Shown: positions 25,493 to 29,227 of the stretch, piece after piece
Layout of the letters: every line of letters begins with the position of its first letter
Position numbering within the stretch: position 1 is the first letter of the stretch
NCBI GenBank assembly: GCA_024278495.1
Contig: JAJRTB010000076.1
Coordinates: forward strand, 1 to 40,059
DNA length: 40,059 bases
From: Deltaproteobacteria bacterium
GTDB taxonomy: Bacteria > Desulfobacterota > Desulfobulbia > Desulfobulbales > Desulfobulbaceae
Reading direction: 5' to 3'
The notes under the pieces: model-generated
Seen by the model: only the letters and a program-made list of their open reading frames with translations
Database searches by the model: none
What the model was told of the DNA's origin: nothing
Translations under genes and position numbers: made by a program

Positions 25493-25963
25493 ATGGTTTT
25501 TGAAAATAAAACAAAAGTTGTTCCGGTTGCCTCGCAGCTGCAACCCCTTTTTCAGAAAAAAAACTGGCACGCCCTCTGGCAGGTCTACACCCTGTCAAAA
25601 AACTGGGCCAAGGTCGCGGGCAGCAAGGCAGCCCAGCGGAGCAAACCGGCCTATATGCGGAAAAACGTGCTCTGGATCCAGGTGCGTGATTCCGTCTGGA
25701 TGCAGCACCTCCACAGTATGAAACCTCAAATACTGGACCAGGTACGCCGCTTCGCGCCTGAGCTTGAAGTGACTGATATCAGATGGCTTCTGCGACCCAC
25801 GCGCCCGGAAACCCCGCAGCAGCCCCCGGACAGGCGACACAAAGCACGACCGCCAACCCCTGAGAAAGAAAAAGATTTCGCCCGAATCGCCGCTACGGTG
25901 GAAGACGAAGAATGCCGCGCCGCCCTGCGCAGACTCTGGCGAACATTTCAGGAATACCGGTAA
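25493..25963 (+). CDS. DUF721 (DciA-like) protein
   Basis: The 156-residue protein matches DUF721: KNWHALWQVYTLSKNWAKVAGSKAAQ followed by SKPAYMRKNVLWIQVRDSVWMQHLHSMKPQILDQV, where 'W..V.G', 'S.P', 'L.V.V..S.W...L' are the conserved positions. DciA is the helicase-loading factor in bacteria lacking DnaC or DnaI; many DUF721 members in this phylum are its likely equivalents. The C-terminal 50 residues are proline- and charge-rich and probably flexible. It lies alone, 176 bases before the CysK-CysS gene. Confidence 0.75.
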   Translation: MVFENKTKVVPVASQLQPLFQKKNWHALWQVYTLSKNWAKVAGSKAAQRSKPAYMRKNVLWIQVRDSVWMQHLHSMKPQILDQVRRFAPELEVTDIRWLLRPTRPETPQQPPDRRHKARPPTPEKEKDFARIAATVEDEECRAALRRLWRTFQEYR

Positions 25964-26139: not shown

Positions 26140-28455
26140 ATGAACTCAATTCTTGAACTTATCGGCAACACCCCTCTTGTGCCCGTCAACCGCCTCAATC
26201 CGGTCAAGGGCGTCACCATCCTTGCCAAGCTTGAATCGTTCAACCCCGGCGGCTCGGTCAAGGACCGGATCGCCCTGTCCATGATCGAGGCGGGCGAGGA
26301 AAGCGGCGAGCTGACCCCGGCCAAGATCGTGCTGGAGGCGACCAGCGGCAACACCGGCATCGGCCTGGCCATGGTCTGCGCGGCCAAGGGGTATCGCTGC
26401 CTCCTGGTCATGCCGGAATCCGCCAGCGTGGAGCGCCGCCAGATCATGCAGGCCTACGGGGCCGAAATCCTGCTGACCCCGGCCAAGAAGAGCACGGACG
26501 GCGCCATTGAAAAGGCCTATGCCATGGGTCTGGAAGACCCGGACCGCTACTTCATGACCGACCAGTTCAACAGCGAGGCCAACTGGCAGGCCCATTACCG
26601 GAACACGGCGCCCGAGATCTGGCGTCAGACAGGCGGCAAGGTAACCGACATTGTCTCCACCCTGGGTACTTCGGGCACGGCCATGGGGCTGAGCAAATGG
26701 TACAGGAAACACCACCCTGAGGTCTTCATCACGGCAGTCGAGCCGTACTACGACCACAAGATTCAGGGTCTGAAAAACATGAAGGAGTCCTACAAACCGG
26801 GCATCTTCGACAAGAACCTGCCCGGCAAAATCGTCAACGTGTCTGACGAGGATGCCTACGAAATGGCCCGCCGCCTGGCCGCGGACGAGGGCATCTTTGT
26901 CGGCATGAGCTCCGGTGCCGCCATGGTCGCCGCCCTGGAGCGGGCCAGGGAAATCAGAGAAGGGTTGATTATCGCCATCCTGCCGGACGGTGGTGAGCGT
27001 TACCTGAGCACGCCGCTCTTTGCCTCACGCAGCCGCAAGGAGTCTGCCGCGCCCAGACTGCGTCTCTACAACACCATGACCCGTAAAAAAGAAGTGTTCC
27101 GGCCCATCAACCGGAACAAGGTCACCTGTTACGCCTGCGGCCCGACCGCCTACCAGTCGCCCAACATGGGCCACTGCCGCCGCCTGGTGGTGGCGGATCT
27201 GATTACCCGCTACCTGGGACTCAAGGGCTATGAAGTCGAATCCTACATGAACTACACCGACCTGGATGACAACACCATTGCCGGAGCAGCCAGGGCGGGC
27301 GTGCCGCTCAAGGAGTTCACCGAGCGCTACATAAACGAATTCACCGCCGCGGCCAAGACCCTCGGAGTCAAACCGGCATCAGGCTACCCCAAGGCATCCG
27401 AACATGTGGAGGACATGCTGGAGATCTCGCACGAGCTGATCCACAAGGGCTATGCCTATGAAAAACACGGATCCATCTACTTTGACATCTCCAAGTTCAG
27501 GCCATACGGCCGGTTGTCCGGTATTGATCTGCGTAAAATCCGCACCGGCACAACCGTGGACCTGGACGACTATGAAAAGGACAACCCCCGGGACTTCACC
27601 CTGCTGAAACGCTCCACCCTGGACGAGCTGAAACGCGGCATTTTCTACCAGACCGACTGGGGCAACGTGCGGCCCGGCTGGCACATCGAGTGCTCGGCCA
27701 TGTCCACCCGCTACCTGGGACAGACCATTGATATCCATACCGCGAGCCAGGACCTGATGTTTCCGCACCACGAAAACGAGATCGCCATTGCCGAGGCCCT
27801 GACCGGCAAACCCCTGGCAAACTACTGGCTTCACTCGGGCCTGTTGCTCAAAGACGGCAAAAAAATGTCCGAGGAGGCCGGCAATATCGTCACCCTGCGC
27901 GAGGTACTGGAAAAAGGCTACTCCGGCCGCGAGATCCGTTTTCTCCTCTTAAGCGTCCATTACCGAAAACCCCTGCACTTCTCCTTCCGACGACTCGATT
28001 CCATCACCACCTCCCTGGAGCGGATAGACGAGTTCACCCGCAAGCTGCTCTGCCTGCCCCCGGACCTGCCCCACCCGGATATCCCCATCTTTGTCGCGGA
28101 CCTGGAGCACAAATTCTACGCGGCCATGGACGACGACCTCAACGTCTCGGGCGCCATCGGCGCCCTGTTCGACTTTATCCGCAAGATGAACCCGGTGCTT
28201 GAAACCGGCAGCATGGAGCGCGAGCAGAAAAACAAGGTCATGGGTATCCTGCACAGTATCAACGGCGTCCTTGGTATCCTGCGGCTGGAGTACTGCCCCC
28301 TGGCCCCGGAACTCAATCGACTGATCCGGGAACGGGAACGGGCCCGCCGCCTCAAGGACTGGGCCGCGGCAGACGTGGCCCGGGCCGAACTGCTGCGAAA
28401 GGGCATCACCGTACGCGACGGCGTTTCCGGCCCGGTCTGGGAGAAGATCGACTGA
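26140..28455 (+). CDS. cysK-cysS: Fused cysteine synthase - cysteinyl-tRNA synthetase
   Basis: One 771-residue frame joins two enzymes of the cysteine pathway. Residues 1-300 are an O-acetylserine sulfhydrylase: PLP lysine K41 in NPGGSVKDRIA, EATSGNTGIGLA (67-77), GTSGTAMG and VGMSSGAA. Residues about 305-771 are class I CysRS: TCYACGPTAYQ with the zinc cysteine C330, WHIECSAMS, FPHHENEIAIAE (zinc His/Glu) and a C-terminal helical domain ending GVSGPVWEKID. The HIGH box reads NMGH (342-345) and the KMSKS box reads KMSEE (575-579), both unusual. The DNA runs through without a stop or overlap, so it is a true fusion. It could channel newly made cysteine to tRNA(Cys). A GAGAGAA ribosome site precedes the ATG. 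Confidence 0.92.
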   Translation: MNSILELIGNTPLVPVNRLNPVKGVTILAKLESFNPGGSVKDRIALSMIEAGEESGELTPAKIVLEATSGNTGIGLAMVCAAKGYRCLLVMPESASVERRQIMQAYGAEILLTPAKKSTDGAIEKAYAMGLEDPDRYFMTDQFNSEANWQAHYRNTAPEIWRQTGGKVTDIVSTLGTSGTAMGLSKWYRKHHPEVFITAVEPYYDHKIQGLKNMKESYKPGIFDKNLPGKIVNVSDEDAYEMARRLAADEGIFVGMSSGAAMVAALERAREIREGLIIAILPDGGERYLSTPLFASRSRKESAAPRLRLYNTMTRKKEVFRPINRNKVTCYACGPTAYQSPNMGHCRRLVVADLITRYLGLKGYEVESYMNYTDLDDNTIAGAARAGVPLKEFTERYINEFTAAAKTLGVKPASGYPKASEHVEDMLEISHELIHKGYAYEKHGSIYFDISKFRPYGRLSGIDLRKIRTGTTVDLDDYEKDNPRDFTLLKRSTLDELKRGIFYQTDWGNVRPGWHIECSAMSTRYLGQTIDIHTASQDLMFPHHENEIAIAEALTGKPLANYWLHSGLLLKDGKKMSEEAGNIVTLREVLEKGYSGREIRFLLLSVHYRKPLHFSFRRLDSITTSLERIDEFTRKLLCLPPDLPHPDIPIFVADLEHKFYAAMDDDLNVSGAIGALFDFIRKMNPVLETGSMEREQKNKVMGILHSINGVLGILRLEYCPLAPELNRLIRERERARRLKDWAAADVARAELLRKGITVRDGVSGPVWEKID

Positions 28456-29150: not shown

Positions 29151-29227
29151 GCGCCAGTAGCTCAGCCGGATAGAGCAGGAGCCTTCTAAGCTCAAGGTCG
29201 GGGGTTCGAATCCCTCCTGGCGTACCA
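29151..29227 (+). tRNA. tRNA-Arg (anticodon UCU)
   Basis: The 77-base gene folds as a full cloverleaf: acceptor stem GCGCCAG/CTGGCGT, D stem GCTC/GAGC, anticodon loop CTTCTAA with anticodon TCT, T loop TTCGAAT, and the encoded CCA at 29225-29227. The first anticodon-stem pair is G-A (27-43), a small irregularity. It reads AGA codons. Confidence 0.95.

Follow-up and report, generated by a model that had tools for sequence, protein, structure and literature searches.

A cysteine synthase fused to a cysteinyl-tRNA synthetase paralogue in Desulfobulbaceae, with a possible role for tRNA-Cys in its control

The fusion gene and its distribution

The window analysed here is a whole stretch of 40,059 nucleotides from a Deltaproteobacteria bacterium of the family Desulfobulbaceae (contig JAJRTB010000076.1), and its subject is a gene on the + strand, at positions 26140-28455, in which a cysteine synthase and a cysteinyl-tRNA synthetase (CysRS) are joined into one chain. 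The open reading frame (ORF) starts with ATG and runs for 771 codons with zero internal stops. Four Pfam domains follow one another along the 771-residue product, namely: PALP (PF00291, residues 5-283), tRNA-synt_1e (PF01406, 320-620), DALR_2 (PF09190, 658-714) and CysS_C (PF23493, 721-761). In addition, two NCBIfam models exceed their cut-offs: TIGR01136 (cysKM, residues 5-294) scores 361 bits against 344, and TIGR00435 (cysS) scores 398 bits against 340. The single CysK-CysS chain announced in a preliminary description of the locus is borne out by these matches.

All parts of the gene lie on the same + strand. The cysteine synthase half (residues 1-295; 26140-27024) is of the CysK/CysM type, with the type II fold of pyridoxal 5′-phosphate (PLP) enzymes. 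It is followed by a linker at about residues 296-305 (27025-27054), whose length differs among fusions and in which the predicted local distance difference test score (pLDDT) falls below 50 at residues 296-304. The CysRS half opens with a Rossmann and connective peptide (CP) catalytic region (residues 306-620; 27055-27999), for which chain 1u0b_B is the structural match. Aligned with E. coli CysRS, the chain has NMGH at the HIGH box (residues 342-345 of the fusion; 27163-27174), NTIA at the equivalent of the KIIK motif (residues 378-381; 27271-27282) and KMSEE at the KMSKS box (residues 575-579; 27862-27876), with the second lysine of KMSKS gone. In E. coli numbering, the zinc ligands C28/C209/H234/E238 are present as C/C/H/E, and the glycine loop GGG (225-227) reads TAS. 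Further downstream lie the DALR_2 helical region (28111-28281) and the anticodon-binding domain (28300-28422), whose residues R732, R736, W741, D745, R748 and D760 correspond to E. coli R423, R427, W432, D436, R439 and D451, respectively. The altered boxes, the retained zinc ligands and the retained C-terminal domain had all been described before from the sequence, and the alignment agrees.

In an AlphaFold2 model built on a 25-row alignment, the mean pLDDT is 86.4, while a predicted template modelling score (pTM) of 0.58 leaves the mutual placement of the two halves uncertain. Residues 306-770 of the model superpose on residues 1-461 of E. coli CysRS taken from its tRNA complex (1u0b_B; Z 49.5, root mean square deviation 4.0, 438 residues aligned). 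Residues ~1-300 match solved cysteine synthases, and the best rows include such enzymes at 39-50% identity. None of the matches listed (60 of 156 solved chains) is named as a CysK-CysRS fusion. That the fusion is real, forming one chain whose C-terminal half has a full-length CysRS fold, is confirmed.

Complete or cut, the fusion occurs in 51 of 57 sampled genomes of the order Desulfobulbales, the window's own genome counted. In a sample of the phylum, 155 of 395 genomes match it at E<=1e-150. A scan of a genome collection has Desulfocapsa, Desulforapulum, Desulfoluna, Desulfobacula and Caldimicrobium among the matches listed. Full-length relatives show 62-82% identity within the order, and in the rest of the phylum identities as low as 43-46% occur. 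Because full-length relatives recur across the phylum, chance or one assembly error is far from sufficient as the origin of the fusion. A set of 198 genomes around G440 is the window's phylum again, with identical match places, and is not counted as extra evidence. At E<=1e-120 no fusion is matched in the Nitrospirota-side (0/148), Pseudomonadota-side (0/299) and Firmicutes-side (0/249) samples, which carry no internal positive control; plasmids give no match at E<=1e-100. The Myxococcota-side sample yields 5 matches among 140 genomes at E<=1e-120, namely three fusions, one of them cut by a contig end, and two split pairs. In the latter, from two genomes, a cysK frame and a fusion-type cysS frame are separate and adjacent (L249, 2984-5348; L250, 2861-5231). 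A long locus in Desulfofundulus (L140) was rejected as a fusion candidate, as it holds two separate cysK-like genes.

The phylogeny was examined with a quick tree of 102 rows, in which the Shimodaira-Hasegawa-like approximate likelihood ratio test (SH-aLRT) is the only measure of support. One branch, with a support of 99, separates the CysRS halves of fusions and split forms from the remaining rows, and another, again with 99, does so for canonical CysRS; this fits one CysRS paralogue of single origin. The branch that sets the fusions apart from the split forms has a support of 66, too low to order the fused and the split state. The fusion and split set of this tree comprises 73 fusions and two split forms. 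A 75% identity threshold on the CysRS half was used to thin the set, but L246, L247 and both split forms bypassed that filter. The changes counted on the tree do not separate gain from loss.

Cysteine synthase and CysRS in the fusion genomes

Motif counts were made on 106 complete fusions. Fusions truncated at a contig end or interrupted in frame (e.g. G008, G011, G012, G045, G352, L131 and L248) were left out and three exact duplicates were removed; the 106 rows still include near-identical rows, with at least one genome present twice. In the CysK half, K41, A67, S69, G70, N71, T72, G73, Q142, G176, T177, G179, T180 and S257 are each found in 106/106 fusions, and position 68 is T in 97 and S in 9. 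The PLP lysine and the PLP-binding loops of an O-acetylserine sulfhydrylase (K41, G176/T177/G179/T180 and S257) are thus present throughout, together with the substrate loop TSGNT (T or S at 68) and Q142. The TIGR01136 cut-off is passed by the window's fusion and by 8/8 further fusions scanned; the narrower equivalog models cysK (TIGR01139) and cysM (TIGR01138) reach their cut-offs in none of these nine. Residues 1-295 therefore share the active-site residues of O-acetylserine sulfhydrylases A and B (CysK and CysM), at the identity to solved ones given above, and the fusion differs from these enzymes by its C-terminal pseudo-synthetase.

Genomes for two further counts, 39 for cysteine synthase and 40 for separate CysRS, were picked by hand for diversity among the fusion genomes. 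With the own cysK as query (E<=1e-45), the fusion is the sole cysteine-synthase match in 21 of the 39 genomes, eight of them single-contig assemblies. Since no other cysteine synthase is found there, the CysK half must work in these cells. In contrast, a separate CysRS frame is found in all 40 genomes tested and the fusion is the only CysRS in none of them, so that it would not be needed for the cell's Cys-tRNA-Cys. This asymmetry had been missed in the preliminary description, which had allowed for the fusion being the only CysRS; that possibility fails in all 40 genomes. The separate frame comes in two pieces in G095, and the query is covered only in part for G127, G159 and G212. In the own genome, a search for a second canonical cysS, as had been proposed, finds one (C160, L002), with HIGH, KMSKS and CCHE intact, which runs off the contig end. 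The separate CysRS of G212 (L241) is of a divergent type: its boxes read HIGN and KMAKS and it sits on a long branch, in contrast to canonical CysRS from the same phylum.

As far as gene content tells, the fusion serves as a cysteine synthase and not as the cell's CysRS. For roughly half of the genomes tested, it would be the cell's cysteine synthase, and a cysteine-forming activity is predicted for it. In the own genome a separate cysK lies on another contig, right behind a 333-residue ORF that resembles serine acetyltransferase by eye (no family search was made). In the single-contig genome G012 (L073), a frame break near residue 595 truncates the CysRS half of the fusion; the CysK half is whole and is the sole one found in that genome, and an assembly error may lie behind the break.

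The union of tRNA-reading residues and a PLP sulfhydrylase in one chain might also suggest tRNA-dependent cysteine synthesis, in which an aminoacylated tRNA-Cys would be delivered by the CysRS half to the PLP site as the precursor, and passages of PMC5424206 on SepRS/SepCysS offer a precedent. We consider this very improbable. A separate CysRS is present, and the free-carboxylate loop of ordinary cysteine synthases, T/S68-S69-G70-N71-T72, is unchanged along with Q142, and this favours a free amino acid as the substrate.

Activation boxes and anticodon domain of the CysRS half

In canonical CysRS rows, H37, G39, H40 and every KMSKS position are kept in 44/44. Among the 106 fusions, 35 retain H37, 46 retain G39 and 52 retain H40; K269, the second KMSKS lysine, is kept in about 5%, with R in 26. 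By the patterns used, HIGH and KMSK/R are both lost in 76 fusions, the zinc set is partly lost in 27, and all three are lost in 20; CCHE is intact in 79, the window's fusion among them. The boxes differ from genome to genome, which disposes of the notion that the same boxes might recur across the order. Changes per column were counted by parsimony over the 75 fusion and split rows. K269 changes 38 times, which equals or exceeds 87% of the 439 columns, and the HIGH positions change 20-26 times against 20 for the median column. Scoring presence or absence on the tree gives 12 changes for a basic residue at 269, 9 for H37 and 6 for the zinc set. The HIGH and KMSKS boxes of the fusions thus change as fast as an average column or faster. 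Of the two options that the preliminary description had left, adapted charging or another task for the CysS half, the second is favoured by these frequent changes and by the separate CysRS in 40/40 genomes.

An alternative is that the CysRS half works as a second CysRS through adapted boxes and receives its cysteine by channelling from the attached synthase. It would be compatible with the four fusions that read HLGN, KMSRS and CCHE, with the window protein passing the TIGR00435 cut-off, and with an R for K at the second KMSKS lysine (26/106), which may be tolerated. Set against these are the separate CysRS frames, the loss of both boxes in 76/106 fusions and the place of K269 among the fastest columns, and we regard this alternative as decidedly improbable. 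The window protein itself probably no longer charges tRNA-Cys. That TIGR00435 accepts the protein as a 'cysteine--tRNA ligase' despite its lost activation boxes is a risk for automatic naming, and the cut-off is also passed by 3/8 further fusions scanned.

The lysine motifs bear on another activity of CysRS, the synthesis of cysteine persulfide, which the preliminary description had brought up. According to passages of PMC5660078, E. coli CysRS has two lysine motifs for PLP binding and persulfide synthesis, 73-KIIK-76 and 266-KMSK-269, and single changes of these lysines greatly affect its activity. The window protein has NTIA and KMSE at these places; I74 is found in 0/106 fusions, K73 with K76 in 2/106 and K266 with K269 in 3/106. 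A cysteine persulfide synthase would suit bacteria that metabolise sulfur, and the fusion partner is a PLP enzyme. Nevertheless, this identity was rejected on both lysine motifs, and we hold it to be extremely improbable.

The zinc set raises the possibility of a cysteine sensor that works without tRNA, in which free cysteine at the zinc site would give feedback on the cysteine synthase. In its favour, CCHE is intact in 79/106 fusions, including the window's, and W205, H206 and T68 of the CysRS half are found in 102, 101 and 87 of the 106, respectively. HisZ would be the precedent, which, as passages of PMC9437257 state, has no adenylation activity and mediates feedback inhibition. However, the 27 fusions that lost part of the zinc set retain the fusion all the same, and a cysteine sensor leaves the frozen charged residues of a fast anticodon domain unexplained. 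We find such a sensor unlikely.

These frozen residues, also missed in the preliminary description, contrast with the activation boxes. In E. coli CysRS, G34 is contacted by R423, R427, W432 and D436 (PMC12684709, in the passages citing Hauenstein 2004). All four are present in the window protein. We take R439 and D451 to serve anticodon recognition as well. R423, D436, R439 and D451 are kept in 106/106 fusions, R427 in 103 (K in the other 3), and position 432 is aromatic in all 106. In parsimony changes over the 75 rows, the first four stand at zero, R427 at two and W432 at thirteen, all among aromatics, while the anticodon domain as a whole is among the faster regions of the CysRS half, with a median of 25 changes. 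Even in the 20 fusions that lack HIGH, KMSK and zinc set, R423, D436, R439 and D451 are kept in 20/20 and R427 in 17 (3 K). Among charged residues invariant in canonical CysRS, 5/5 in the anticodon domain are kept at >=97%, against 12/36 elsewhere (Fisher p 0.008); for all residue types the contrast is weaker (6/9 against 29/102, p 0.027), and the four G34 contacts tested within the anticodon domain give p 0.007. All of these p values assume that columns are independent, and the pattern had already been noticed when they were calculated. The CysRS half is thus a CysRS paralogue in which the ATP-activation boxes change freely and the anticodon-domain residues do not. From this conservation, it probably still binds tRNA-Cys.

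The same residues might instead be kept for folding, in a relic or scaffold that only stabilises the chain or its oligomer. Invariant R and D residues may be structural, and several functions are lost in some lineages. Further slow columns of the anticodon domain are not known contacts (A426 and G446 with at most one change; A435, L442 and G455 with three), so that the conservation is partly that of an ordinary fold. On the other hand, the whole half including the anticodon domain is present in all 106 complete fusions (cut and broken ones having been excluded beforehand), and it is the charged residues of the domain that are unchanged, not the majority of its hydrophobic ones. A relic or scaffold seems to us quite unlikely.

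Possible control of cysteine synthesis by tRNA-Cys

Given activation boxes that decay, anticodon residues that stay fixed and an attached cysteine synthase, the simplest account would be a pseudo-synthetase that binds tRNA-Cys and serves the cysteine synthase. We therefore favour, tentatively and with somewhat less than even confidence, a cysteine synthase whose pseudo-CysRS half still binds tRNA-Cys, most likely for control of cysteine synthesis by this tRNA. The stricter form of this proposal, in which the enzyme is gated directly by tRNA-Cys, with both the anticodon and the charging state read via the fused, catalytically dead synthetase, is possible but doubtful. Under the proposal, the CysRS half would bind tRNA-Cys and read its GCA anticodon, and in this organism would no longer charge it. 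The tRNA would be the control input, most usefully in its uncharged form, as a signal of cysteine shortage. Its binding would alter the activity or the partners of the cysteine synthase, and synthesis would follow translational demand. Where the zinc/cysteine pocket is kept, as in the window protein, free cysteine may act as an additional input. The control itself and its direction are speculative and drawn by analogy: the logic would combine that of HisZ, an aminoacyl-tRNA synthetase paralogue regulating the biosynthesis of its own amino acid, with that of Gcn2, a synthetase-like sensor of uncharged tRNA.

Several observations weigh against this proposal. The gene is dispensable, as 6/57 genomes of the order do without the fusion (G001, G013, G017, G022, G039 and G052), and one further cysteine synthase is found in 18/39 fusion genomes, including the window's own. 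Among the 106 fusions, a HIGH-type box survives in 8 and a KMSK/R-type box in 27; the two occur together in 5, of which 4 also have CCHE, so that certain lineages may still activate cysteine. In addition, passages of PMC5660078 report that mutants of the KMSK lysines of human CARS2 are impaired in persulfide synthesis and retain another function; the loss of that lysine alone is thus no proof of lost charging. The frozen R and D residues of the anticodon domain could be structural. Furthermore, 29/102 canonical-invariant columns outside the anticodon domain are kept at >=97%, chiefly in the CP insertion. A block of this insertion (residues 439-508 of the window protein) is in the slowest region of the CysRS half, whose median is 10.5 changes, and has the fusion-specific invariant residues S445, Y478, R491, L497 and G500; it may contact tRNA, the CysK half or something else, and any full account must cover it. 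Finally, at a pTM of 0.58 the model yields no reliable interface between the CysK and CysRS halves, and across the 45 loci compared the fusion has no conserved gene partner.

The fusion belongs with the aminoacyl-tRNA synthetase paralogues that have tasks outside charging. With bacterial CysRS (class I, TIGR00435; E. coli 1LI5/1U0B) it shares the whole-length fold, the zinc set in the window protein and the anticodon-domain residues; it differs by its decayed HIGH and KMSKS boxes, TAS for GGG, the cysteine synthase in front and the separate CysRS alongside. HisZ, a HisRS paralogue and regulatory subunit of HisG, is likewise tied to the synthesis of its own amino acid, but it is a separate subunit, whereas the CysRS half is fused in one chain and keeps its anticodon-domain residues. 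CysRS belongs to class I and HisZ to class II, and for the fusion, regulation is an analogy only. Like the fusion's CysRS half as we read it, HisZ lacks adenylation (passages of PMC9437257). Gcn2, described in PMC4335047 as sensing uncharged tRNA through a synthetase-like domain, differs in being a eukaryotic kinase with a HisRS-like domain. MshC and CysRS* are also CysRS paralogues with new tasks, and passages of PMC7609411 and PMC9437257 place CysRS* in Desulfobacterales. MshC ligates cysteine to a sugar; as an identity for the fusion it was rejected, TIGR03447 scoring 195 bits against a cut-off of 485. CysRS* was rejected as well: by the same passages of the two reviews it has no anticodon domain and charges a selC*-type tRNA with an opal anticodon, whereas the fusion is the reverse, with the anticodon domain (PF23493, 721-761) kept and the activation boxes lost.

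If the CysRS half binds tRNA-Cys, the supply of an amino acid would be coupled to its tRNA at the enzyme level and not through transcription or translation, a coupling known in pieces from HisZ and Gcn2. If gating by tRNA-Cys is true, it would be widespread in a phylum that comprises sulfate reducers and their relatives, in proteins that, where they pass the family cut-off, are liable to be misnamed as cysteine--tRNA ligase. In openly licensed PubMed Central papers, with subscription papers and preprints outside the search, we found no description of a CysK-CysRS fusion, and in the openly licensed papers no enzyme-level tRNA link for cysteine synthase.

A third CysRS-like paralogue, of 424-428 residues and without an anticodon domain, was observed at L239 (4473-5753; G002, of the window's genus), L238 (4035-5285) and L240 (from about 4089). 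These proteins have HIGH-type (HxGN) and KMSKS boxes and the zinc-site stretches WNIQDPAM and RHHDYxI, and their match to E. coli CysRS ends at about residue 319-395, a pattern reverse to that of the fusion. They are possibly CysRS* or an MshC-like ligase; a tRNA gene was looked for on L238, L239 and L240, and none was found there.

Recurrent neighbours of the fusion, named by eye without a family search, include thymidylate kinase, SurE, LptD, endonuclease III, L,D-transpeptidase, MurJ and DciA. Each is confined to lineages, and we therefore assign the fusion no operon partner. In the window, a DciA gene (Pfam) lies directly upstream of the fusion at 25493-25963, and a clustered ORF of 111-156 residues, DciA-like by eye, takes the same position in L118, L119 and L198. 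About 700 bases downstream of the fusion, the window carries a tRNA-Arg (TCT) gene at 29151-29227.

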